Origin: Gemmatimonadales bacterium | GTDB taxonomy: Bacteria; Gemmatimonadota; Gemmatimonadetes; Palauibacterales; Palauibacteraceae | Length of the DNA stretch: 53,568 nucleotides | NCBI GenBank assembly: GCA_009838765.1 | Contig: VXQX01000064.1 | Span: 15,577-69,144 of the forward strand | Reading direction: 5' to 3' | Shown here: positions 22 through 16,473 of the stretch, piece after piece | How positions within the stretch are numbered: the first letter of the stretch is position 1 | How the letters are laid out: each line of letters opens with the position of its first letter | Notes under the pieces: model-generated | What the model was told of the DNA's origin: nothing | Database searches by the model: none | The model's input: only the letters and a program-made list of their open reading frames with translations | Program-made: the position numbers and the translations under genes

Positions 22-1071
22 TTAGGGTCCGGGGCGGATGCGGGGTATGCCGTCGCCGAGTGTCATTTCGCCCACCTGGCGGGCGAGGCCGGCCTCGCGG
101 GCGGGGGCGATGGCCTGTTCGAAGCGGCGGATCTCGCTCTCGGGAAGGTCGATGATCTCGACGCCGGCTTCCTCCGCCATCCGCAGGCCGTCGGCGCCGG
201 CGCGCGCGTAGGCGGTGGCCCCGGCCATCGACAGGGAGGCGTCGGCGGCTTCGTCGATCCAGCCCCGTTCCTCGGGGGAAAGGGACTCGTAGATGCCCCG
301 ATTCATCAGCAGGACGAACGGAAGTCCGGAGGTGGGGAGCCAGGTCGTGAGGTAGGCGGCCGGCTCGTGAAGCTGGAACGTCCCGATCCCCGACGGGGAT
401 ATCGCGACGCCGTCGATGACGCCGGTGGTCAGGCTCTGGTGGACCACCGTGCCGGGCTGCATGACCGCGCTCGCGCCGAGCGCTTCGATGAATGGGATAA
501 GGCTCCGCGTCGACACCCGGATCTTGAGCCCGTTCATGTCCTCAAGCGTCCGCACCGGCCTCTCGCGGGTGAGCAGCACGGGGGCGTCGTTGGCCCACAG
601 CCCCAGCACCTTCGCGTCGTACTCCGCCTCGAGCGCCGGCCGGGCGCGACGCATGGCCTCGGTACACTCGACCGCCGTCTTGCAGATGCCGGGGAAGCCG
701 ATGAGGTCGGTCTTCGGAAAGACGTCGGCCGTGTAGGCGGGAATGGCGAGGGCGATGTCCGCCACGCCGCTCCGCAGGATCGAGTACTGCGCCGGCGCGG
801 ACGAGTTGAGGGCCCCGGCGGGGAACTGCCGGACGGTGAGTCTGCCGCCCGAGAGTTCCGCGAGCCTCTCCGCGAGCGGCGTGAACATGTCCCCGGTGAG
901 GACGTGATCCGCCGGCAGGAAGTGCGCCAGCGACAACTCCCTCGTACCGCCCGTGTCGGGCGCTTCCCGGCATCCGCCCGCGCCGCCGCCCGCGACGAGC
1001 AGTCCAAGGACGAGCGTCCGCCTCGCGCGCGTCATTGCCTGCGTCATTGCCTGCGTCATTGCCCGCGTCAT
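22..1071 (-). CDS. dctP: TRAP transporter substrate-binding protein (DctP family)
   Basis: Periplasmic solute-binding subunit of a TRAP transporter, 349 residues, which captures an organic acid and delivers it to the DctQM membrane part. The mature part opens with the family's typical SLAHFLPADHVL strand, and contains the LKIRV segment whose Arg normally binds the substrate carboxylate. The N-terminus is basic, then hydrophobic and ends in GGC, so a lipid anchor is possible though the lipobox is not canonical. I chose the ATG at 1071 because it forms an ATGA overlap with the stop of the upstream permease, implying coupled translation. Three more in-frame ATGs follow at 12-base steps inside a tandem repeat, so the exact start is uncertain. 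Last gene of the TRAP operon; the ligand cannot be read from sequence. Confidence 0.88.
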   Translation of the reverse strand: MTRAMTQAMTQAMTRARRTLVLGLLVAGGGAGGCREAPDTGGTRELSLAHFLPADHVLTGDMFTPLAERLAELSGGRLTVRQFPAGALNSSAPAQYSILRSGVADIALAIPAYTADVFPKTDLIGFPGICKTAVECTEAMRRARPALEAEYDAKVLGLWANDAPVLLTRERPVRTLEDMNGLKIRVSTRSLIPFIEALGASAVMQPGTVVHQSLTTGVIDGVAISPSGIGTFQLHEPAAYLTTWLPTSGLPFVLLMNRGIYESLSPEERGWIDEAADASLSMAGATAYARAGADGLRMAEEAGVEIIDLPESEIRRFEQAIAPAREAGLARQVGEMTLGDGIPRIRPGP

Positions 1072-1076
1072 TGCCG
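1029..1076. repeat. four copies of a 12-bp tandem repeat over the dctP start
   Basis: The unit GCGTCATTGCCT (plus strand) is repeated four times with minor end variation. On the minus strand each unit supplies an in-frame ATG for dctP at 1071, 1059, 1047 and 1035, so the protein begins with up to four repeats of Met-Thr-(Arg/Gln)-Ala. The first ATG also overlaps the stop codon of the upstream permease. Because the unit is a multiple of three, slippage would change the number of start codons without changing frame. Confidence 0.85.
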
Positions 1077-2840
1077 GGACTCGTGATCGGGGACCGCGGA
1101 AACGCGGAGGGTCAGTATGTCCACGTCGTGAAACTGCTGGTGCCGGACGGAGGAGGCGAGGTGCCGGAGCAGGCGGAGCGAGATCTCCTGCTCCACGTCG
1201 GCCTCCCTCGTGTCCGCCTCGAGCCACGCCAGCCGGTCCTGGAGGTTGAGATCGTCGCTGTCCGCGGCGCCGACCCTGAACTCCAGCACGGCCTCGCCGT
1301 CCACCTTGCCCGCCGTCAGGAGCAGTTGGTGTCTCGCGTAGTCCGGCGTCCCCTCCGCCCCGTCCGCGCCCTGCACCGCATCCCGCGACTCAAGCAGCGT
1401 GAGCAGCGCCTCCTCGCTCGCGGCTTCGATCCGATCCCGGATCTCCGCCAGCCCGTGCCGGGCCGAAAACGCCTGGATGAACTCCCGGACCCGGGGCAGT
1501 TCCGCCATGTCGAGCGTGCCCCTCAGCCGGCGCTTCCGCCGCGCCGTGAGCCCCGTGAGCAGCAGCGCCACCAGGCCTCCCGCCGTCAGCCCGCTGCTCA
1601 ACACCCCGCCCGCGAACTCCGCGAAGAATGCGGGGAAGACCATGTCGAACTCGCAGGCGACGCCCGTCCAGAACGACACGCCCGCGATGAGGCCATTGCG
1701 GGGGTTCGCCCCGATGCTCCGCGCGACTTCGCGCATCCCGACGGTGAACAGCGTCGCCATGATCACGGCCATGGTGGCGGCCACGACGGCGCCGGGAATG
1801 GCGAGGATGAGGGCGAGCGCCTTGGGGACGAAGGCAAGGACGGCGAAGACGAGTCCGGACGCGACGGCGATCCGGCGCGCCGCGACGCCCGTGACTTCGA
1901 TGGCGGCCACGGCGTTGCCGTTGAGCGTGTTGGGCATCGTTCCCGCCAGCCCCGCGAGCAGGTTTCCGGCGCCTTTCGCGGCCACGGCGCGCTGCACGGC
2001 GCGATAATCGACCGCCCGCGGCCGGCGCCACGACACACGCTGAGCGGCGACCGCAATGGCGACCGACTTGGTCGTGCCGACGAGCGCCACGAACAGGAAC
2101 GCGGGCAGCAATCCCCAGAACGCCGGGCCGAAGCCGATGTCCGGCGCGGGCGGCCTGCCGGCCGGGAAGCCGATCCACCGGGCGTCGGCCACGAGGCCGG
2201 CGTCGTAGATGCCGAAGGCCGTCCCGGTCACGGAGCCGGCGACGATGCCGATGGCCGGCGCCCAGAGGCGGAGCGTCCCTCTCGCCCGGAGCGCGATCGC
2301 GAGCGTGGCGACGATCGTCACGGCGGCGCTCAGCGGCCCGGCCGGCACCGGGGCTCCAGGCGGCAACTCGTTGAGCATGCCGAAGAGGATCGGCATCACG
2401 GTGACGGGGAGGAGCATGACCACCGTCCCCGTGATGACGGGCGTGAGCATCCGGTGCAGCAGCGAGAGCCGCGCCGAAAACGCCGCCTGGGCGAGCGCCG
2501 AGAGGACGACCAGCGTGGCGAGCAGCCCCGGTCCTCCCTGGATCAGCGCCTCCGCGCACACGCCGATGAAGATCGCCGAGCTGACGTGCGGCAGCGCGTA
2601 TCCCGCCCCGAAGCGTCCCGCGCGCCGGCCCTGGAGGATGGTGGCGACGCTGCACGCGAGGACGGAGGCGAACACGGCCCACAGCACGCGTTCCCCGGCG
2701 CCCCCCGCCTGGAACACGATCGTCGGGATCAGCACGGCCCCGTTGATTCCCATCGCGGCGAGCTGCAGGCCGAGACCCAGGGCAACCGGCGCCGGAACCC
2801 GGTCCTCCACCTCGTATCGGAGACCGCCGCCCGCGCTCAT
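1068..2840 (-). CDS. NCS2-fold permease with C-terminal soluble extension
   Basis: A 590-residue protein. Residues about 15-432 are a polytopic membrane domain of the nucleobase-cation symporter-2 (SLC23) fold, recognised by the segment around 300-323 (GTMPNTLNGNAVAAIEVTGV), which matches the TM10 region of UraA/xanthine permeases. The usual family length is about 430-480, so residues 440-590 are extra. That tail has a helix with SEEALLTLLE, a strand with EFRVG, and a final LRLLRHLASSVRH helix and strand, which resembles a degenerate GHKL/anti-sigma ATPase fold without clear ATP-binding residues. The TM1 Gln-His and the nucleobase-binding glutamates of UraA-type proteins appear replaced (GLQL; TLNGN). 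It lies between dctM (10-base gap) and dctP (ATGA overlap), so it is part of the TRAP operon. Substrate unknown. Confidence 0.8.
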   Translation of the reverse strand: MSAGGGLRYEVEDRVPAPVALGLGLQLAAMGINGAVLIPTIVFQAGGAGERVLWAVFASVLACSVATILQGRRAGRFGAGYALPHVSSAIFIGVCAEALIQGGPGLLATLVVLSALAQAAFSARLSLLHRMLTPVITGTVVMLLPVTVMPILFGMLNELPPGAPVPAGPLSAAVTIVATLAIALRARGTLRLWAPAIGIVAGSVTGTAFGIYDAGLVADARWIGFPAGRPPAPDIGFGPAFWGLLPAFLFVALVGTTKSVAIAVAAQRVSWRRPRAVDYRAVQRAVAAKGAGNLLAGLAGTMPNTLNGNAVAAIEVTGVAARRIAVASGLVFAVLAFVPKALALILAIPGAVVAATMAVIMATLFTVGMREVARSIGANPRNGLIAGVSFWTGVACEFDMVFPAFFAEFAGGVLSSGLTAGGLVALLLTGLTARRKRRLRGTLDMAELPRVREFIQAFSARHGLAEIRDRIEAASEEALLTLLESRDAVQGADGAEGTPDYARHQLLLTAGKVDGEAVLEFRVGAADSDDLNLQDRLAWLEADTREADVEQEISLRLLRHLASSVRHQQFHDVDILTLRVSAVPDHESRQ

Positions 2841-2850
2841 CCGTGGATCC

Positions 2851-4158
2851 TCATCCGTACATGGCGTTCGGGAGGAAGGTGGCGATGCGCGGGAAGAGGG
2901 CGATCAGGATCAGCGCCGCCAGCATCGCGAGCCAGAACGGCAGGATGCCGCGGAACATCGCGCTAACCGGCACGTCCGGGGCGACGCCCTTGACCACGAA
3001 GATGTTCAGCCCGACGGGCGGCGAGATGAGTCCCATCTCGAGCGTGACCACGATCATCACGCCGAACCAGATCATGTCGACGCCGAGCGACTCGAGGATC
3101 GGCTGAACGAGGGGCACGGTCAGCACGAGCATCGCGAACCCGTCCAGGAAGGTGCCGAGCACGATGAACATGAGCAGCACGAGCACGACCACCTGGGCGC
3201 CCGAGAACGCCTGCTCGCCGACCCACTCCGCTGCCACGAACGCGATCCCGGTGAGCCCGAGGAAGACCTTGAACACGAAGGCGCCGAACAGGACGAGGAA
3301 GGCGGTGCCGCTCGCCTTCAGCGTGCCGTTGACGATGTCGACGACGGTCCGCCGGTTCAGCGCCCGCCGCGCGCAGGCCGCGACGAGGGTCAGGCACGCG
3401 CCGACGCCGGCCGCCTCGATGGCGGAGAAGATGCCGGCGTAGATGCCGCCGATGGTTACGATGACGATGCCCAGGATCCACGCCGCGCTCGCGGTGGCCC
3501 GCAGGCGCTCCCGCCAGGGCACGGGCGTCCTGGGGTGGGGCGCCTTGTCGGGGTCGCGCCGGACGATGATCCAGACGGCGAGCACGAAGAGCAGCGTGAG
3601 TACGATCCCGGGCACGACGCCGGCCATGAACAGGCGGCCGATGCTCTCCTCGGTGACGATGCCGTAGATGACGAGTCCCGCCGAGGGCGGGATGAGGATG
3701 CCGAGCGTGCCGCCGGCGGCGATGGCGCCGGTCGCGAGCGAGTCGTCGTACCTGAATCGCCGCATCTCGGGCAGGGAAACGCGGCCCATGGTCAGCGCGG
3801 CGGCCAGCGACGAGCCCGAAAGCGCCGAGAATCCGGCGCAGGCGACGATCGACGCGGACGCGAGACTGCCCCGGAAGCGACCGAGCCAACTGTGGGCGGC
3901 GCGGTACAGGTCCTGACTCATCCCGGACGCCACGGCCAGGTTCCCCATCAGCATGAACAGCGGCAGGATGGTGAGGGGATACCGGGAGGCGACGGCGAAG
4001 ATCTCGCCCGCCAGCACCGCCGTGACGGCGCCCGGGCGGACGGCCGCGATGCCGCCCACCCCGACGACGAGCATCGCCAGCCCCACCGGCACCCGGATGA
4101 AGAGCAGGACGAAGAGGGCGAGGAAGCCCGCGAGGGCGATGCCGGTCCCGTCCATCAC
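2851..4158 (-). CDS. dctM: TRAP transporter large permease (DctM family)
   Basis: Large membrane subunit of the TRAP transporter, 435 residues, the normal length for DctM, which forms the sodium-coupled elevator-type transport path. It is almost wholly hydrophobic with about a dozen membrane segments. Family hallmarks are visible: the early RVPVGLAML segment, the conserved GFSALSGSSLAAALTMG loop with TLGILIPPSAGLVIYG behind it, and the late LISPPVGLNIFVVKG motif. It follows dctQ by 47 bases and precedes the NCS2-type gene by 10 bases, consistent with one transcript running leftward from about 4745. Start taken at the first ATG; a second ATG follows immediately. Confidence 0.93.
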   Translation of the reverse strand: MMDGTGIALAGFLALFVLLFIRVPVGLAMLVVGVGGIAAVRPGAVTAVLAGEIFAVASRYPLTILPLFMLMGNLAVASGMSQDLYRAAHSWLGRFRGSLASASIVACAGFSALSGSSLAAALTMGRVSLPEMRRFRYDDSLATGAIAAGGTLGILIPPSAGLVIYGIVTEESIGRLFMAGVVPGIVLTLLFVLAVWIIVRRDPDKAPHPRTPVPWRERLRATASAAWILGIVIVTIGGIYAGIFSAIEAAGVGACLTLVAACARRALNRRTVVDIVNGTLKASGTAFLVLFGAFVFKVFLGLTGIAFVAAEWVGEQAFSGAQVVVLVLLMFIVLGTFLDGFAMLVLTVPLVQPILESLGVDMIWFGVMIVVTLEMGLISPPVGLNIFVVKGVAPDVPVSAMFRGILPFWLAMLAALILIALFPRIATFLPNAMYG

Positions 4159-4183
4159 GCGTCCGGGTCGTTCATTCGACCGG

Positions 4184-4216
4184 CTCCATCACTCGGCCGA
4201 CTCCATCACTCGGCCG
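4184..4216. repeat. 17-bp tandem duplication at the end of dctQ
   Basis: The string CTCCATCACTCGGCCG occurs at 4184-4199 and again at 4201-4216. The right copy contains the dctQ stop codon (minus-strand TGA at 4208-4206); the left copy carries the same TGA in the dctQ-dctM gap. It looks like a local duplication of the gene's 3' end. No function is evident. Confidence 0.8.
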
Positions 4217-4745
4217 GTTCGTTGGGGTCTTCCGCGTTCCACGTCGCGAACCCCAGGAGAAGCTGGGACAGGAGCAGGAGTCCGTAGGCGGCGAGCGACG
4301 CGCCGAGCGCGTAGTAGAAGGGCAGGTGCGGGATCGACACGCTGCCGGTGACGGCGCCGCAGGGAAGGCCGCAACTGCCGTGCGCGAACAGGGCGTACGC
4401 GGCCGCGGCGGCCGCGCCCACGCCGAGCAGCCGCGCGATGACGTCCGTGACCCGGGTGACGCGCCGGCCCGCGAGGCGGGCGAGCAGGTTCACGCAAACG
4501 TGCGAGCCCTCTCGCGCCCCGTAGGCGACGGCCGCCGCCACGACGACCGCGAGCGACATGGTCGAGACGTCCTCGATCCAGAGCAGGGAATCGTTGAGGA
4601 CGTAGCGCCAGAAGACCTCGGCCACGGTGATCGCCAGCAGCACCGCGAGCGCGACTCCGCCGGCGACGGCGAACCCCGCCGCCACGCGGCCGCAGAACGC
4701 CTCCGCGCGCGCGAAGCCCTCCCTGTGGGCCTCGAAAACCGTCAT
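4206..4745 (-). CDS. dctQ: TRAP transporter small permease (DctQ family)
   Basis: Small membrane subunit of the TRAP transporter, 179 residues, expected to have four transmembrane helices and to scaffold DctM. Visible features are the first membrane helix, the LAITVAEVFWRYVLNDSLLW segment (the AEVFWRYV signature of DctQ, followed by a Trp-rich turn), then WIEDVSTMSLAVVVAAAVAYG with the Glu typical of the second helix, and two further helices. First gene of the TRAP/NCS2 operon on the minus strand. The reading frame ends inside a 17-bp duplication that also repeats the stop codon. Confidence 0.9.
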   Translation of the reverse strand: MTVFEAHREGFARAEAFCGRVAAGFAVAGGVALAVLLAITVAEVFWRYVLNDSLLWIEDVSTMSLAVVVAAAVAYGAREGSHVCVNLLARLAGRRVTRVTDVIARLLGVGAAAAAAYALFAHGSCGLPCGAVTGSVSIPHLPFYYALGASLAAYGLLLLSQLLLGFATWNAEDPNEPAE

Positions 4746-4883: not shown

Positions 4884-6941
4884 CTAGTACACGACGCTGT
4901 AGGTCACGCTCAGGCTCCTCCCGGCCTCGGGCATGATCTCCTTCACCCGAGACAGGTGACGCCGGTACTCGGTGTTGCCGATATTGTCGAGGTGGAGCGT
5001 CAGGACGTGCGGCCGCCCGGCGAAGGAGAACCGCACGCCGCCGGAAAGGCCGAAGGTCGCGTATCCATCGGTGGGATCCTCGAACCGCCCGGTCCGTTCC
5101 TGGCTCGAGGCCATCCGCGTCTCGGCCTCCACGAACCAGCTCACCGGCGAATAGCCGACCGACACCCGACCCTGGAGCGGGGGGATGAACGGGAGGGGTT
5201 CGTCGGTGGCGCGGATCGTGCCGCGCACATACGACGCGGCGGCCTCCAGCCGGAGTCCGGCCGGCACCGACCACTCGAGCTGGCTCTCGAACCCGGTCAG
5301 CACGGCGTCCTCTCCCACGAACTGATAGATGGGGAGCCGCACGCGGCTGAGTTCACCGGTCGCCTGCGGAAAAATGTAGCCCGCGATCGTGTTTCTGAAC
5401 CACGTCGCCTCGGCGCTCAGGCGCGGTCCCGTGACGCGCCCGAACACGTCGATGCCGAGTCCCGTCTCCGTCCCGAGCGAGGGATTGCCGACGTCGTATG
5501 AATTGGCCGCGAGGTGCGGCCCCTCCGAGTAGAGTTCGTGTACATCCGGGGTGCGAAAGGCACGGCCCACGCTCGCGCCGAGCGTGAACTGCCCCGTCAC
5601 CGGCAGAAGTGCACCCAGCGATCCGGAGACCGCGTTGAAGGAACGCGCCCGGATATGCCCGATGTCGGAGGACGCGTCTTCCTCCTCCGGTTCAAGCTGG
5701 ACCCGGTCGTAGCGGAGCCCGGCCTCGAGCTTGACCGGATCGAGCTGGATCTGCTCGAGGACATACGCCGCCTGTGTCCTGCGCCGGGAATTCGGGGTGT
5801 ACAGCGCGCCCGCGAATCCGAAGTCCTCCCACGACACTCTCGCCCCGACGGCCCCCGATGAGAACGGCCCCCAGCCCGCGTGCCGCGCCCGGGCCTCCCC
5901 GCTCACGATCTCGCGATCATATTGGGCGCCGAGGATGTCCGGGGGTTCCACCTCGTGGTGCCGGTACCACGTGTAGCCGGCATCAAGTTCGATCGCCTCC
6001 AGGCCGCCCTGTCCGGGCCGGATGACGCTGCTGAACCGGCCCGCGGCTCTCTCCTGCTCCGTGCGCACCGCGTTCGTGTGGCCGCCGACGAAGCCTCCGG
6101 GGATCCCGTAGTCGTTCGCGAAGTAGCGGAACGAACCGCCCGCGTAACCCCAGTCGTCCACCCACGATGTCCCCGCCGCCACGCTCCGCACGTCGGTCTG
6201 GGTTCCCACCAGCCTCCCGATCGGCGTCCGCAGATCCCCTCCCTCGCGCTTCGAGACCTCGACGCGAAGCGGGATGTTCTCGGTGACGCCGACCGTGAGC
6301 TGGCTGCTCCCCCCGATGCCGCGGGTCGCCCCGTGCCCCTGGACCGAGGTGAACCCGGTCGCGCCGCGAGGCACCGTCTGCGGGACCTCCTCCCGAATCA
6401 CGTTGATCACGCCCCCGAGTGCGTTGCTCCCGTAGAGAATCGCGCTCGGTCCGCGAATCACGTCGATCCGCCGGGCCGAGGAAGGGGCGAGCGCCGAGGC
6501 GTGGTCCGGGCCGCTGCTGAGGACGTCCCCCACCCGCTGGCCGTCTTCGAGCACGAGGATGCGGTCTCCGCTCAGGCCACGGATGACGGGCTGGGACGTG
6601 CCCGGCCCCATGCTGGTCACGGTGACCCCCGGGACCGATTCCACCGTCTGCGCGAGGGTGCCCGCCAGCCGCCGCTGCAGGGTCTCGTCCGAGAACACGG
6701 CGGAAGGCCGGATCGCCTCGCTCACGGCCGTGGGACCCAGGACCGCCGTGACGACGATGTCCGGCAGGGTGATGGCGGCAGTCTCCCCGGCCTCGGAGGC
6801 CACCTCGACGGTGTCCGCGGCCTGTTGCTCGTGCTCGGCCTGCTGCGCGACCGGCGTCGAGCCCGCGGCGCGCGCCGGCACGCCCGCGAGGGCGATCCCG
6901 AGGAGGAGAGGGAGGACGAGATGGCGTCTGGATATCGTCAT
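4884..6941 (-). CDS. ZnuD-like TonB-dependent outer-membrane receptor
   Basis: Outer-membrane beta-barrel of 685 residues that imports a metal or metal complex using TonB energy. A signal peptide covers about residues 1-25, followed by a TonB-box-like segment ITLPDIVVTA (about 57-66). The plug domain contains PVIRGLSGDRILVLEDGQRV, then GPDHASALAPSSARRIDVIRGP and YGSNALGGVIN. The Pro-Asp-His-Ala string matches the plug of the ZnuD zinc receptors. The barrel fills the rest and ends in VVY, a normal barrel end. Upstream at 7009-7030 lies a Fur/Zur-type box shared with the neighbouring Fur-family gene and the DUF169 gene, supporting zinc control. A copper or cobalamin receptor is a less likely alternative. 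Confidence 0.82.
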   Translation of the reverse strand: MTISRRHLVLPLLLGIALAGVPARAAGSTPVAQQAEHEQQAADTVEVASEAGETAAITLPDIVVTAVLGPTAVSEAIRPSAVFSDETLQRRLAGTLAQTVESVPGVTVTSMGPGTSQPVIRGLSGDRILVLEDGQRVGDVLSSGPDHASALAPSSARRIDVIRGPSAILYGSNALGGVINVIREEVPQTVPRGATGFTSVQGHGATRGIGGSSQLTVGVTENIPLRVEVSKREGGDLRTPIGRLVGTQTDVRSVAAGTSWVDDWGYAGGSFRYFANDYGIPGGFVGGHTNAVRTEQERAAGRFSSVIRPGQGGLEAIELDAGYTWYRHHEVEPPDILGAQYDREIVSGEARARHAGWGPFSSGAVGARVSWEDFGFAGALYTPNSRRRTQAAYVLEQIQLDPVKLEAGLRYDRVQLEPEEEDASSDIGHIRARSFNAVSGSLGALLPVTGQFTLGASVGRAFRTPDVHELYSEGPHLAANSYDVGNPSLGTETGLGIDVFGRVTGPRLSAEATWFRNTIAGYIFPQATGELSRVRLPIYQFVGEDAVLTGFESQLEWSVPAGLRLEAAASYVRGTIRATDEPLPFIPPLQGRVSVGYSPVSWFVEAETRMASSQERTGRFEDPTDGYATFGLSGGVRFSFAGRPHVLTLHLDNIGNTEYRRHLSRVKEIMPEAGRSLSVTYSVVY

Positions 6942-7008
6942 GTGGGCCGTGTGGGAGTGGGGAGTGGGTTTGCCTGCGCCCGGCCGGGATTCCGCCTGCG
7001 CCTGACCG

Positions 7009-7030
7009 TAATGATAACGGATTATCGATA
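7009..7030 (-). promoter_or_regulatory. Fur/Zur-type box upstream of the TonB receptor
   Basis: TAATGATAA, spacer CGGA, TTATCGATA: a 9-4-9 inverted repeat with two mismatches, 68 bases before the receptor ATG. The 17 bases GACCGTAATGATAACGG are identical to those in front of the Fur-family gene (7531-7547). It is AT-rich in a GC-rich region. Binding by the neighbouring repressor is inferred. Confidence 0.75.
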
Positions 7031-7135
7031 AGGGGCAAAGGTGCGGCCGGCGACCTCCGATCGGGTCGCCGTGGGGGGCCGCCGAAGCAGCCGGGTCAGT
7101 GGCCCGTCAGGTACACATGTCGGGTCAGGGGTGCG

Positions 7136-7504
7136 TCACGCGCACGCCGCGCAGCGGCCGAAGAGGATCAGTTCGTGGCTGTCGACCTCGAAGCCGTCCG
7201 GTGCCAGCGTCTCGACTTCGTCCGGGCACCGGTGGACATCGAACGCCTGATCGCAGGAGTTGCAGAGGAAATGGTGGTGATGCGGACGGTCGGCCAACTC
7301 GTAGCGCAGCCCGCCGCCCGGGAACTTCACCCCCGACAGCCACCCCTCGCGGACCAGCGTCTTCACGTTTCGGTAGACGGTCGCCACGCCGAGCGACGGC
7401 ACGATCCGCTGGCCGTACTCGAGGATCTCGTCGAGCGTGAGCGGGCGGCCGGCCGTCGTGAACACGCGGCGGATCGCCCGGCGTTGTCGAGTATCTCGTT
7501 GCAT
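7136..7504 (-). CDS. zur: Fur-family metalloregulator, probably Zur
   Basis: A 122-residue Fur-family repressor. The N-terminal winged helix includes LGVATVYRNVKTLVREGW, the family recognition helix. The C-terminal domain has HHHHFLCNSC and a terminal RCAAC, giving two Cys-x2-Cys pairs for the structural zinc and a His cluster for the regulatory site. Context favours zinc over iron or peroxide: the next gene downstream is a ZnuD-like receptor, and both genes plus the DUF169 gene carry the same box. Its own box lies 32-53 bases upstream of the ATG, so it is probably autorepressed. Fur or PerR specificity cannot be excluded from residues alone. Confidence 0.85.
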   Translation of the reverse strand: MQRDTRQRRAIRRVFTTAGRPLTLDEILEYGQRIVPSLGVATVYRNVKTLVREGWLSGVKFPGGGLRYELADRPHHHHFLCNSCDQAFDVHRCPDEVETLAPDGFEVDSHELILFGRCAACA

Positions 7505-7535
7505 CGAAGTCTACCCCCCCGGCGCAGTTGGACCG

Positions 7536-7557
7536 TAATGATAACGGTTTATCGCCC
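7536..7557 (-). promoter_or_regulatory. Fur/Zur-type box upstream of zur
   Basis: TAATGATAA, spacer CGGT, then TTATC followed by a diverged right end (GCCC). It sits between the DUF169 stop (7579) and the zur ATG (7504). The left arm and 17 flanking bases are identical to the receptor box at 7009. Likely autoregulatory site. Confidence 0.7.
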
Positions 7558-7578
7558 CCTGTCACGCGAGGGATCCAC

Positions 7579-8319
7579 TCATCCGAACCGTTTTGTGTCC
7601 GCCGAGGCGTAGCGCGCCATCGCGCGGTCGAGCCCGGCCGTCGCCTCGAGCGTTTCGACGACGTCCGACAGTCGCTTCCCCGGGATCACGCACGTCATCT
7701 CCTCGGAGCGCATACCCGTGCGCGAGCGACTGAGGGCGCACCCGACGCTGGCCGCCACCATGTTCTGATCCTTGGCCATGGCCACGATGTGGCACTGCGG
7801 CTTGCCCTCGATCGGCATCTCCGGGAAGGCGTTCTGCAGCGTCATCAGCGCGAGACCGTGGATGCGCAGCAGCACGACATCCGGGGCCGTGCTGCGCTCG
7901 GCAAGCGGTCCATACACCACCGACTCCGGCCGCTCGGCGACGTGCGGCAGGGCCATCACGGCCGCCTGGTCGACCCAGCCGGCCTCGAGGACCGCTCCGA
8001 CGTCGTCCTTCGTCGCCGCTTCCTCCAGCGTGATGAAGCCGTGGGTGTAGCTGCCGACGCTGCAGTTGGCGTGGTCCGCGCCGACGGTGGCGAAGGTGTC
8101 GGTGGCGCCCTGGATCCAGAACACGCAGCCAGCCGGGACCTGGCCCGTCCGACCGTGCTCGTTTGGCGGGGGGTAGCTGGCCTCGACGCGAGCCGCGGGC
8201 GGCGTCTGGCCGGGGCCGTGGAACGAGATCGCCAGCGGCGGCGCGAATGGCTTGAGCGCAGCGACGAGGCGGTCGTTGAGGTCTCTCCAGTCCTGTGTGT
8301 CTTCGCTCGACGTCTTCAT
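7579..8319 (-). CDS. DUF169 family protein under a Zur-type box
   Basis: A cytoplasmic-looking protein of 246 residues belonging by overall pattern to DUF169 (COG2043), a family of unknown function. Recognisable parts are the PLAISFHGP strand near residue 30, the central ATDTFATVGADHANCSVGSY segment, and a C-terminal KDQNMVAASVGCALSRSRTGM motif. Cysteines and histidines recur (HANC, PQCHIV, VGCAL, TCVIPG), so metal binding is conceivable but not shown. The ATG at 8319 is preferred over one at 8355 because residues before it do not look like the family. A perfect 9-4-9 Fur/Zur-type palindrome lies 95 bases upstream. No function is claimed. Confidence 0.8.
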   Translation of the reverse strand: MKTSSEDTQDWRDLNDRLVAALKPFAPPLAISFHGPGQTPPAARVEASYPPPNEHGRTGQVPAGCVFWIQGATDTFATVGADHANCSVGSYTHGFITLEEAATKDDVGAVLEAGWVDQAAVMALPHVAERPESVVYGPLAERSTAPDVVLLRIHGLALMTLQNAFPEMPIEGKPQCHIVAMAKDQNMVAASVGCALSRSRTGMRSEEMTCVIPGKRLSDVVETLEATAGLDRAMARYASADTKRFG

Positions 8320-8414
8320 TTCATGTTCGCTCCGGGGCTTGGCCCAGCCGGCCATCGTCAGGGGCGCTGGACGTGTGGGGCGGTTCCGTCATCACGGGGC
8401 GCGAGTGACTTGCT

Positions 8415-8436
8415 TAATGATAACGTATTATCATTA
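8415..8436 (-). promoter_or_regulatory. perfect 9-4-9 Fur/Zur-type palindrome upstream of DUF169 gene
   Basis: TAATGATAA, spacer CGTA, TTATCATTA: both nine-base arms are exact reverse complements. This is the best of the three boxes in the window, and the only gene it can serve is the DUF169 gene at 8319, since the gene on its other side points towards it. Confidence 0.82.
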
Positions 8437-8438
8437 GT

Positions 8439-8510
8439 GAGCCAAGCGACCCCGGCGAGCCAAGCGACCCCGGCGAGCCAAGTGACCCCGGCGAGCCAAG
8501 CGGCCCCGGC
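8439..8510. repeat. four tandem copies of an 18-bp repeat
   Basis: The unit GAGCCAAGCGACCCCGGC is repeated at 8439, 8457, 8475 and 8493 with single-base changes, then a partial fifth copy. It lies between the MerR-type gene stop and the DUF169 box, directly abutting the latter. There are no spacers, so it is a minisatellite, not a CRISPR array. Confidence 0.9.
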
Positions 8511-8551
8511 GAGCCCGGGGGTCGCGCTCGGCCTCGGTGGCGCGCAGGGCT

Positions 8552-9343
8552 CTAGACGCCCTCGGCGACCCGGTTCCTCCAGCGGGCTTCGTTGGCGCGG
8601 ATCGCGTCCTGGACGAACGCGGCGAGCCCCTTCCCGCGCTTCTCGAAGTACGCCTCGAAGCGTGGATCGGCCGTGTACATTTCGGCGAGGTTCCGGTGCA
8701 TGCCGTGGCTGCACGGATAGAACCAGCGGTCGATGTGGCGCCGGTGCTCCTCGGCCAGCTCCATCGCCGCGCGGCCGGCGGCGTGGCCGCCCTCCGCCAT
8801 CAGCGCGGCCAGCCCCGCCACCACCGTCTCGCCCTCCTCGGTGATCCGCGCCCAGTCGTCCTTGCCGTACCCGCGCGTACGCCGCATCGACTCCGCGTAG
8901 GCTTCGCTCCCGCCCCAGCGCCGCTCGACCTCCTCCTCGTACTGCTCGTGATCGAACTCCTCCAACCCCTCGAACATCTCCGTCCGGTCCATCTCCGTCT
9001 CCTCATCCATCGCCCTCAGGGCGCGGTCGACCCCTTGGATGATGCTGTCGGTCCTCCGCTGCCGTTCCCTGAGCAACTCACGCTGCGCCTCGAGCGCGCT
9101 CCGCCGGTCGTACGCAGGGGCGTCGAGCAGTCGGCCGATCGCGTCGAGGCTGAAGCGCAGTTCGCGCAGCAGCCGTATCTGGCGCAGCCGCTCGAGGTCG
9201 TCGTAGGCGTAGAGCCGATAGCCGTTCTCCGCCCGCCCGGAAGGGACGAGCAGCCCGATCCGGTCGTAGTGATGCAGCGTGCGCACCGTGACGCCGGCCA
9301 GCCGCGCGACCTCCCCCACCGTATGAAGTTGCCCCGTTTCCAT
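8552..9343 (-). CDS. TipA-like MerR-family regulator with TipAS drug-binding domain
   Basis: A 263-residue transcription activator. Residues about 5-75 form a MerR winged helix (TVGEVARLAGVTVRTLHHYD, then GYRLYAYDDLERL). A long coiled-coil with ELLRERQRR follows, and the C-terminal part about 145-255 is a TipAS-type antibiotic-recognition domain, with HRRHIDRWFYPCSHGMHRNL and MYTADPRFEAYFE as its hallmarks. TipAS proteins bind thiopeptide and other drugs and then activate their own promoter. The ATG at 9343 fits a MerR-type promoter whose -10 would end about 8 bases upstream, giving an almost leaderless message. No obvious target gene is next to it, so it may only control itself or distant efflux genes. 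Confidence 0.87.
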   Translation of the reverse strand: METGQLHTVGEVARLAGVTVRTLHHYDRIGLLVPSGRAENGYRLYAYDDLERLRQIRLLRELRFSLDAIGRLLDAPAYDRRSALEAQRELLRERQRRTDSIIQGVDRALRAMDEETEMDRTEMFEGLEEFDHEQYEEEVERRWGGSEAYAESMRRTRGYGKDDWARITEEGETVVAGLAALMAEGGHAAGRAAMELAEEHRRHIDRWFYPCSHGMHRNLAEMYTADPRFEAYFEKRGKGLAAFVQDAIRANEARWRNRVAEGV

Positions 9344-9350
9344 GCGCCTC

Positions 9351-9381
9351 ACGGTAAACCCTCACGTAACGTCAGGGTCAA
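9351..9381 (-). promoter_or_regulatory. MerR-type promoter and operator of the TipA-like gene
   Basis: On the minus strand a -35-like TTGACC (9381-9376) is followed, at 19-base spacing, by TACCGT (9356-9351). Between them lies an imperfect 19-base dyad, CCCT-ACGT-T-ACGT-AGGG, at 9359-9377. A long spacer with a dyad inside it is the classic MerR activator arrangement. It predicts a start of transcription at or next to the ATG at 9343. Confidence 0.55.
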
Positions 9382-15312: not shown

Positions 15313-16473
15313 CTACCGGGAGCGGTGGAAGAAGACGGTCTCGGCCAGCCGCCTGAACACGTTCCAGCTCAGGAGTCCGGCCTGCAGCGCGCGCGCCACC
15401 GGAAGGTGATCGAACCCCCAGCGGGCGGCGCGCTTGAGGGTGTGGTTCGGATACGCGCGGCGCACGACGTCGCCGGGGTGGGCGGCGCCTCGATCAGAGC
15501 CGCTTCCGCCGAGGTGGTCCGCGATCGCGTCGGCGGCGAGCTTGCCGAACCGGTAGGCCTGGTGAATGCCGCCGGCGGTGAGCGGCGACACCATGCCGGC
15601 CGCGTCTCCGACGAGCAGGACCCGGTCCGCATGGAAGTTCCGCAGCCGGCCGCCGATCGGGATGACGCCGCCGCGCTTCTCCAGCACCCGTCTCCCGGAC
15701 AACCCGAACAGGCCGTCGATCTTCTCGCTGAACCGGCGCATGTCCGCTCGGCGGTCGCGGTGGAGCGCCAGCCCGACCTGCGTGGCCCGGACGCCGGGCA
15801 CCACCCACCCGATGTATCCCGGCGCGCACTCGGGATCGATGAAGCAGTGCAGGCAGTCGCCGTCGCCGCCGCTGGCCTCGTACTCCCACTCCACGCCCTT
15901 GAGGAGCCGGCGGTTGCGGTCGAGCGCGAAGCTCTCCGCCACCCTGGAGCGCGCCCCGTCGGCCCCGACGAGAAACCGGCAGGTCACGCCGGAAGCCGCG
16001 CCGGAGCCCGCGAGCGTCAGCGGCATCGAGCCCCGCGTCGCGCCCGGCGCCGCGGTTGGCGCCGCCGTCATCCCTGAGGTCGGCACCACGCCCTCGAACG
16101 GAGCGCCAAACCGGATCTCGGCCCCCGAGCGAAGCGTCTCATCGACGAGGTGGCGGAGAAGCCCCGCGGTGTCCGTGGCCATGAAGAAGTAGGAGTCCCG
16201 CTCCAGTTCGACGAAGCGGTGCCGCGGATCGTAGACCCGGACGCGCTGGATTCGGCGGACGAGCGACGCCGGGGCGGCCCACTCGTCCCACGCCTCCTTG
16301 ACGAGAATCCCGGTCGTGTGGATGCGCTCGCCCGGTTCCGACTGCCGCTCCAGGACGAGCACGGAGAGCCCGCGCTCCGCCGCCCGCCGCGCGCAGGCCA
16401 GCCCCGCGAACCCGGCCCCCACCACGGCGAGATCGTAGTCCGCCGACTCCGGCAACGCCCCGACGGCCGTCAA
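15313..16473 (-). CDS. geranylgeranyl-reductase-family FAD oxidoreductase
   Basis: A 386-residue flavoprotein of the NAD(P)/FAD-dependent geranylgeranyl reductase group, which usually saturates isoprenoid chains or oxidises related lipids. The N-terminal Rossmann motif AVVGAGFAGLACARRAAERG binds FAD; ADGARSRV in the middle and VLLVGDAAGMVSPLTAGGIH near residue 310 are the DG and GD motifs of the group. Length is normal. It may be membrane-associated through its hydrophobic C-terminal region. The gene is bracketed by inverted copies of a palindromic repeat, 28 bases downstream and 13 bases upstream of the reading frame, which is unusual. Substrate is not predictable; a hydroxylase-type flavin monooxygenase is an alternative. 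Confidence 0.8.
   Translation of the reverse strand: MTAVGALPESADYDLAVVGAGFAGLACARRAAERGLSVLVLERQSEPGERIHTTGILVKEAWDEWAAPASLVRRIQRVRVYDPRHRFVELERDSYFFMATDTAGLLRHLVDETLRSGAEIRFGAPFEGVVPTSGMTAAPTAAPGATRGSMPLTLAGSGAASGVTCRFLVGADGARSRVAESFALDRNRRLLKGVEWEYEASGGDGDCLHCFIDPECAPGYIGWVVPGVRATQVGLALHRDRRADMRRFSEKIDGLFGLSGRRVLEKRGGVIPIGGRLRNFHADRVLLVGDAAGMVSPLTAGGIHQAYRFGKLAADAIADHLGGSGSDRGAAHPGDVVRRAYPNHTLKRAARWGFDHLPVARALQAGLLSWNVFRRLAETVFFHRSR

Follow-up and report, generated by a model that had tools for sequence, protein, structure and literature searches.

DUF169 proteins (COG2043) range across archaea and many bacteria, and the evidence on them elsewhere is limited to gene neighbourhoods and fitness data (PMC4001038, PMC8762117, PMC5322559); the accessible parts of the literature searched gave no functional assignment for the family. 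A Gemmatimonadota bacterium with a 3.6-Mb genome carries a DUF169 gene close to a Fur-family repressor gene and a TonB-dependent receptor gene, and we asked whether these genes share metal-dependent control and what such control would say about DUF169. The window is the whole stretch of DNA analysed (53,568 nucleotides), and coordinates are positions in it (Table 1).

Operators and promoters in the window

The pattern TAATGATAA-N4-TTATC, allowing at most three mismatches, had five matches against 0.10 expected, and no shuffle had five. Sites were then scored with a weight matrix (PWM) whose training boxes exclude all those upstream of DUF169. Even so, the DUF169 box (score of 44.1) exceeded every training site, followed by the receptor box (39.8; itself a member of the training set) and the fur-family gene box (18.0), while the next-best site within the window scored 3.4. 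In the DUF169 operator, TAATGATAA-CGTA-TTATCATTA, the 9-4-9 inverted repeat is perfect. An earlier note on this DNA had described near-identical boxes before the three genes, with that of DUF169 a perfect palindrome and the strongest; pattern matches and PWM scores bear out the boxes as real and the rank of the DUF169 site, and all three are present, but the fur-family box has one degenerate half, on its outer side, and near-identity does not extend to it. This box is nevertheless kept across the genus, and we read it as a weaker site of predicted autoregulation. A chance origin of the palindromes was rejected on the match counts against expectation and shuffles, the reversed-pattern controls described below and the PWM. 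No structured RNA was found in the region 6900–8700.

The boxes overlap promoters: the right half doubles as the -10 element (TATCAT), with TTGnCC 16 bp upstream. Across 28 operator sites the TTGACA-like match was 3.5 of 6 at the 16-bp spacer, compared with about 0.6–2 elsewhere. With promoter elements assigned by consensus match, palindromic operators therefore lie over the promoters of their targets, as expected of a Zur regulon.

Table 1. Genes, operators and promoter elements at the DUF169 locus.
Feature	Position	Strand	Details
TonB-dependent receptor gene	4884..6941	-	PF07715/PF00593; nearest NCBIfam model ZnuD
Receptor-gene operator	7009..7030	.	TAATGATAACGGATTATCGATA
Receptor promoter, -10	7011..7016	-	TATCAT
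Receptor promoter, -35	7033..7038	-	TTGCCC
Fur-family repressor gene	7136..7504	-	122 aa; PF01475 match; putative Zur
Repressor-gene operator	7536..7557	.	TAATGATAACGGTTTATCGCCC; outer half degenerate (GGGCGATAA)
DUF169 gene (PF02596)	7579..8319	-	246 aa from ATG at 8319
DUF169 operator, Zur-type	8415..8436	.	TAATGATAACGTATTATCATTA; 95 bp before ATG
DUF169 promoter, -10-like	8417..8422	-	TATCAT; inside right half of operator
DUF169 promoter, -35-like	8440..8445	-	TTGGCT; 17-bp spacer to -10

Box targets in the genome and in relatives

A genome-wide search for the full palindrome, again allowing three mismatches at most, yielded no more than four sites. Two boxes stand outside the window, before a His-rich lipoprotein gene (C91) and a MerC-like gene (C43), and the regulon is therefore larger than the three genes previously proposed. 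Relatives have 0–5 box sites per genome at the same threshold, and the reversed-pattern control gave 0 matches in every genome scanned. The search across related genomes that the earlier note had called for returned DUF169 repeatedly: the box precedes DUF169 in 5/5 genomes having both an intact DUF169 gene and this box type. Flanks of these boxes are unrelated (identity of 82% inside the box vs 35–42% in 30 bp each side), and the DUF169 box is the sole such site in two of the genomes (G404 and G406).

The other targets point to zinc. The receptor of the window scored highest against the ZnuD zinc-piracy model among NCBIfam models (NF038289; 188.6 bits) but below its curated cut-off of 950, and we therefore call it a ZnuD-like receptor rather than a true ZnuD; together with the His-rich lipoprotein it provides the zinc-uptake type of target within this genome. 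Among relatives the box also precedes zrgA, ZnuD-like receptor operons and a His-rich lipoprotein gene, and one genome (G407) has it before ZrgA (PF10986, zinc uptake), DUF3299 and zur. This recurrence, the zinc-uptake targets and the operon contexts described below support the earlier suggestion that DUF169 has a role in the zinc or metal economy of this lineage.

Fur boxes have a 7-1-7 arrangement. The core here, TGATAA-N4-TTATCA (6-4-6), is one base longer, and none of the box targets could be identified as an iron-uptake gene; on these two grounds the boxes do not fit a Fur (iron) regulon. According to the accessible text of PMC2823685, the box half-sites are near-identical, with TAATGATAA identical, to those of the verified cg0042 operator of Corynebacterium glutamicum Zur (TAATGATAACGGTTATCATTT, verified by gel shift), whose spacer has 3 bases as opposed to 4 in the window boxes. 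In Pseudomonas and Vibrio, Zur controls operons of the ZrgA type, as given in the accessible part of PMC11481552. What this text, PMC2823685 and the review PMC6103462 describe, as far as accessible, is shared here: a Fur-family repressor whose gene carries a box of its own, TonB receptors and an operator on the promoter, with ZrgA (Pseudomonas PA4063-PA4066, PMC11481552) found in the relatives. By contrast, the accessible parts of these papers do not list DUF169, MerC-like or His-rich lipoprotein targets, or the flavoprotein, FeoB-like permease and 180-aa trio of the relatives.

The DUF169 protein and its neighbours

The window protein is a full-length family member (PF02596, 45 bits vs a cut-off of 27; profile positions 2–208 of 209), and its sub-clade differs from the family elsewhere in lying under Zur-type boxes. 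An alternative in-frame ATG lies at 8355, with 8319 being the conserved start as judged from homologues (L029–L033). Four cysteines and one histidine (C65, H83, C86, C176 and C194) are invariant in 19 diverse DUF169 proteins, and these residues suggest metal handling. A sequence search found no solved relative, and no solved fold resembling the AlphaFold2 model (mean pLDDT 83, pTM 0.84) was found.

DUF169 is present in 2/17 genomes of the genus, and in the window it forms a single-gene insertion adjoining the putative zur gene, a slot that holds a box-carrying 180-aa gene in G011. In one genome an intact DUF169 gene comes first in an operon whose other members encode a flavoprotein, a FeoB-like permease and a 180-aa protein of an unnamed family; decayed remnants head the same operon in two others (G222 and G434). 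The gene order at L033 is zur, box, DUF169, flavoprotein, permease and 180-aa gene. The flavoprotein shares PF13738 with YpdA-like/Pyr_redox_3 flavoproteins but lies below the YpdA cut-off (64.7 bits vs 339.9), and the permease shares PF07670 with the FeoB GATE domain but comes without a G domain. A further genome (G188) gathers zrgA, DUF3299, zur, the box, receptor, His-rich lipoprotein, flavoprotein, FeoB-like permease and 180-aa gene in a single cluster. In Ca. Versatilivorator (Acidobacteriota; L031), where no box was found anywhere, DUF169 comes last in an operon after COG0523, MerC and receptor genes.

Copies in Vicinamibacterales, Bacteroidota, gammaproteobacteria and Nitrospira have no box and no recognisable zinc neighbours, those of Nitrospira adjoining an rSAM_CUAEP gene. 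The link between DUF169 and zinc is therefore lineage-specific, and we rejected DUF169 as a universal zinc gene.

Tentatively, DUF169, the YpdA-like flavoprotein, the G-domain-less FeoB-like permease and the 180-aa protein may work together as a Zur-controlled system, so far undescribed, by which Gemmatimonadota and Acidobacteriota import or release metal; DUF169 would then be a cytosolic protein of a new type that handles zinc or a substitute metal. The accessible portions of the literature searched contain nothing relevant on Zur regulation of DUF169 or of a pyridine nucleotide-disulfide oxidoreductase.

Zinc-independent substitutes such as RpmE2 and FolE2 are common members of Zur regulons, and DUF169 might instead be such a stand-in for a zinc enzyme and no metal handler, a reading compatible with Zur control. 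The accessible part of PMC6103462 lists such substitutes, and the close DUF169 proteins without zinc context are what an ordinary enzyme would show. However, we consider this reading unlikely: the genome has one DUF169 match and thus no paralogue to replace, invariant Cys/His residues are unusual for zinc-free substitutes, and DUF169 is linked to a transport and redox module.

The metal sensed and a proposed model of zinc shortage

The Fur-family gene has its own operator, and its product is the presumed binder of the boxes. Zinc as its metal would follow from the target genes; the repressor matched no Zur-specific NCBIfam model and reached no model cut-off, and its PDB matches mix Fur, PerR, Nur and Zur at similar scores. 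A regulator sensing iron, manganese, nickel or cobalt, with an operon set serving that metal, is one alternative, and the true Zur would then be the Zur-like protein encoded at C23. The genome has four Fur-family genes, the repressor gene included; this second one is divergent from a COG0523 GTPase gene across a palindrome of another type (ACTTGCA-N2-TGCAAGT). Moreover, the module permease is FeoB-like and the repressor scores best against a PerR model among NCBIfam models, though far short of its cut-off. Nevertheless, ZrgA, DUF3299, His-rich lipoproteins and ZnuD-like receptors are among the relatives' targets, the half-site is that of the verified Zur operator (PMC2823685, accessible text), and the remaining two Fur-family genes look Fur-like (C93) and PerR-like (C19) by eye, which makes another metal quite improbable.

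Incidental regulation, in which DUF169 acquired an existing Zur-box promoter on landing beside zur, fits a sporadic, horizontally moved gene and the slot shared with the box-carrying 180-aa gene, but is largely contradicted by the data and very improbable, since the box is retained at four other places with differing flanks and neighbours, DUF169 or its remnant comes first in the flavoprotein-permease-180-aa operon at L033, L122 and L114, and a zinc operon context persists even in the box-less Ca. Versatilivorator.

We therefore favor a Zur-type repressor whose box regulon includes DUF169 and serves zinc shortage, an overall explanation that we regard as probable. With sufficient zinc, the repressor would occupy the 22-bp operator over the -10 element of its own, the receptor and the DUF169 genes, blocking RNA polymerase; when zinc is short, these genes would be switched on together with those of the His-rich lipoprotein and the MerC-like membrane protein. 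DUF169 would be grouped with the module adjoining it in relatives and would handle metal in the cytosol, with zinc or a substitute metal bound at the invariant Cys/His and passed on or held. This biochemical role, given the regulation, is the weakest step, plausible but short of probable. As judged from sequence comparisons, Zur-type control and a role of DUF169 in zinc economy appear well supported, and DUF169 most likely assists the cell when zinc is scarce.

The linked four-gene module looks undescribed in the accessible parts of the literature searched. For the DUF169 family, the promoter, placed under what can be recognised as a zinc repressor, provides a testable condition (zinc starvation) and partner genes, together with five Cys/His residues that are invariant. 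The boxes also outline a probable zinc regulon for a phylum with few cultured members.

Boxes in the window and its genome

We scored candidate Zur-type operators in the window, where three AT-rich boxes lie in otherwise GC-rich surroundings. An 18-base pattern (≤3 mismatches) matched 5 times against 0.10 expected. A weight matrix trained without any DUF169 box ranked the DUF169 box highest (44.1), ahead of the receptor box (39.8), the repressor-gene box (18.0) and the next-best window site (3.4), bearing out the earlier note's description of the boxes. Scanning the whole 3.6-Mb genome for the complete 22-base palindrome (9-4-9; ≤3 mismatches) gave four sites, and the reversed pattern at this threshold had no match. 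Two sites are the DUF169 and receptor boxes; the others precede genes for a His-rich lipoprotein (protein end HVHVHEH; no Pfam match) and a MerC-like protein (PF03203). The proposed regulon thus extends beyond its three boxed genes in the window.

Tandem copies (4.3) of the 18-base unit GAGCCAAGCGACCCCGGC lie immediately upstream of the DUF169 operator and supply the −35-like TTGGCT of its promoter. A regulator gene of the MerR family, which encodes a TipAS ligand-binding domain, adjoins the locus; a regulator of this type also lies near zur, the putative Zur gene, in genome G016. Among the TRAP transporter genes, a xanthine/uracil-type permease gene sits between DctP and DctM.

Coordinates of features in the window and in other loci (L numbers)
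Feature	Position	Strand	Remark
DUF169 gene (PF02596)	8319-7579	minus	first in transcription order
Fur-family gene	7504-7136	minus	second in transcription order
TonB-dependent receptor gene	6941-4884	minus	third in transcription order
Box upstream of DUF169	8415-8436
Box upstream of Fur-family gene	7536-7557
Box upstream of receptor gene	7009-7030
Tandem array	8439-8515
MerR/TipAS regulator gene	8552-9352	minus
TRAP transporter genes	22-4745	minus	DctP, DctM, DctQ
Trio loci	L082 4808-7569, L083, L094, L112-L124
DUF169 remnants	L122 about 7913-8072, L114 about 3604-3699
DUF169-like tandem pair	L043 5140-6726
Second Zur-like Fur-family gene	L081 (contig C23) about 15334-15621
Second repressor copy	L026, L064 (2021-2389)

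Conservation and promoter overlap

Within the genus, the genes repeatedly preceded by boxes are those for receptors, the repressor (whose box is half-degenerate and almost constant in form), the His-rich lipoprotein, MerC, a flavoprotein and an unnamed 180-aa protein. The earlier note's proposed search for the box in relatives found it upstream of DUF169 in 5/5 genomes with intact DUF169 and this box type (the window's, G016, G402, G206 and G404; DUF169 loci L029, L030, L032 and L033 in the latter four). Pairwise identity was 82% in the DUF169 box versus 42% and 35% in the 30 flanking bases on either side. G404 and G406 each have a single site at ≤3 mismatches, the one before DUF169, and four genomes with unboxed DUF169 (G403, G405, G409, G410) had no such box anywhere.

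When 28 boxes were aligned in the direction of their genes, TATCAT or a close variant fell in the operator's right half, in most cases with TTGnCC or GTGACA lying 16 or 17 bp upstream; no good element of this kind is present at L032 or at the zrgA/DUF3299 sites. The mean match to TTGACA was 3.5/6 at a 16-bp spacer versus about 0.6-2 at other spacings. The −10 element and spacer of a predicted sigma-70-type promoter thus lie under the operator, where bound repressor would block polymerase, by analogy with established Fur-family behaviour. The Corynebacterium glutamicum cg0042 operator, bound by Zur with zinc in a gel shift (PMC2823685), has the same half-sites (TAATGATAA/TTATCATT), although its spacer is 3 bases rather than 4.

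Gene neighbourhoods and the metal

At L033, zur, the box and DUF169 are followed by genes for a Pyr_redox_3 flavoprotein, a FeoB-like GATE permease and the 180-aa protein (the trio). L030 reads box, DUF169, 180-aa gene, and at L034 DUF169 and the flavoprotein gene precede the contig end. The trio of G222 and G434, which belong to different phyla, is still headed by a DUF169 with an internal deletion, in G222 under a box with 1 mismatch. A perfect box in G003 heads a small His/Cys protein, receptor, His-rich lipoprotein and trio, and in G011 a boxed 180-aa gene fills the slot beside zur held by DUF169 in the window. In G589, the neighbours of a distant 180-aa homologue are a COG0523 gene and a gene of the Fur family whose product shares 48% identity with the L033 repressor. 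Ca. Versatilivorator (Acidobacteriota) has no such box; there DUF169 comes after genes for a COG0523 GTPase, MerC, a small Cys-rich protein and a ZnuD-like receptor. Through these contexts, both DUF169 and the trio are linked with zinc acquisition, and this in more than one phylum.

Both Gemmatimonadota and Acidobacteriota have the trio (PF13738; PF07670 without G domain; 180-aa) in conserved form, and in many cases it is preceded by the same box or has zur, zrgA or COG0523 nearby. The DUF169 remnants at L122 and L114, from two different phyla, keep both ends, have lost most of the interior and head the same operon.

G407, whose DUF169 is boxed, has the same box between zrgA (PF10986, 119 bits) and DUF3299-zur; a further box lies ahead of a receptor operon. 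One G188 cluster holds zrgA, DUF3299, zur, box, receptor, His-rich lipoprotein and the trio genes. ZrgA operons are Zur-controlled in Pseudomonas and Vibrio (PMC11481552). The top NCBIfam model for the receptor in the window's genome is ZnuD, with a score far under cut-off. Two points count against certainty on zinc: the repressor's sequence does not fix its metal, and on contig C23 another Fur-family gene neighbours a COG0523 GTPase and has a palindrome that differs from the box. This Zur-like gene is divergent from the GTPase gene, with ACTTGCA-N2-TGCAAGT between them, and possibly encodes a second zinc regulator that has an operator to itself. In G001 and G016 the boxed MerC gene is immediately followed by a second window-type repressor copy, which shares 76% identity with the one at L033.

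Distribution and possible role of DUF169

DUF169 occurs in 2/17 genomes of the genus and 4/395 sampled genomes of the phylum, and relatives at 78-93% identity span Gemmatimonadota, Acidobacteriota, Bacteroidota and one gammaproteobacterium; it is therefore a mobile gene. Relatives at 45-52% identity are chiefly from Nitrospirota. In the tree, box-bearing DUF169s group with the zinc-operon copy from Ca. Versatilivorator as a six-row set (support 95/84). A proteobacterial MAG holds a tandem DUF169-like pair, the first only ~25% and the second ~51% identical to the window's protein.

DUF169 has no sequence relatives in the PDB, and its AlphaFold2 model (pLDDT 83, pTM 0.84; shallow alignment, 24) matched no solved fold below E = 0.001. 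Across 19 proteins, with identities as low as about 25%, the residues C65, H83, C86, C176, C194 and R198 (Met1 counted as the first) do not vary. Given its regulation, the most economical reading is that DUF169 would be a cytosolic metal-handling protein; the main rival makes it a zinc-free substitute enzyme. Close DUF169s can also have zinc-free surroundings: in some Acidobacteriota the neighbour is a D-alanyl-D-alanine carboxypeptidase-like gene (judged by eye), and in Nitrospira the neighbours are rSAM_CUAEP and an ATP-grasp-like gene. This argues that the chemistry of the protein is a general one, co-opted here for the zinc response. At the Nitrospirales loci L045-L051, which have no zinc genes near DUF169, the order is DUF169, then the radical SAM gene (NF040546 in L045, 644 bits versus a cut-off of 500) and the ATP-grasp-like gene.

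As far as regulation and gene context go, the earlier suggestion that DUF169 serves zinc or metal economy is supported. Judged from sequence, this is a regulon of a familiar kind, the Zur type. Its content is new: DUF169 and its linked module, neither of which turned up as a Zur-regulon member in the papers searched.
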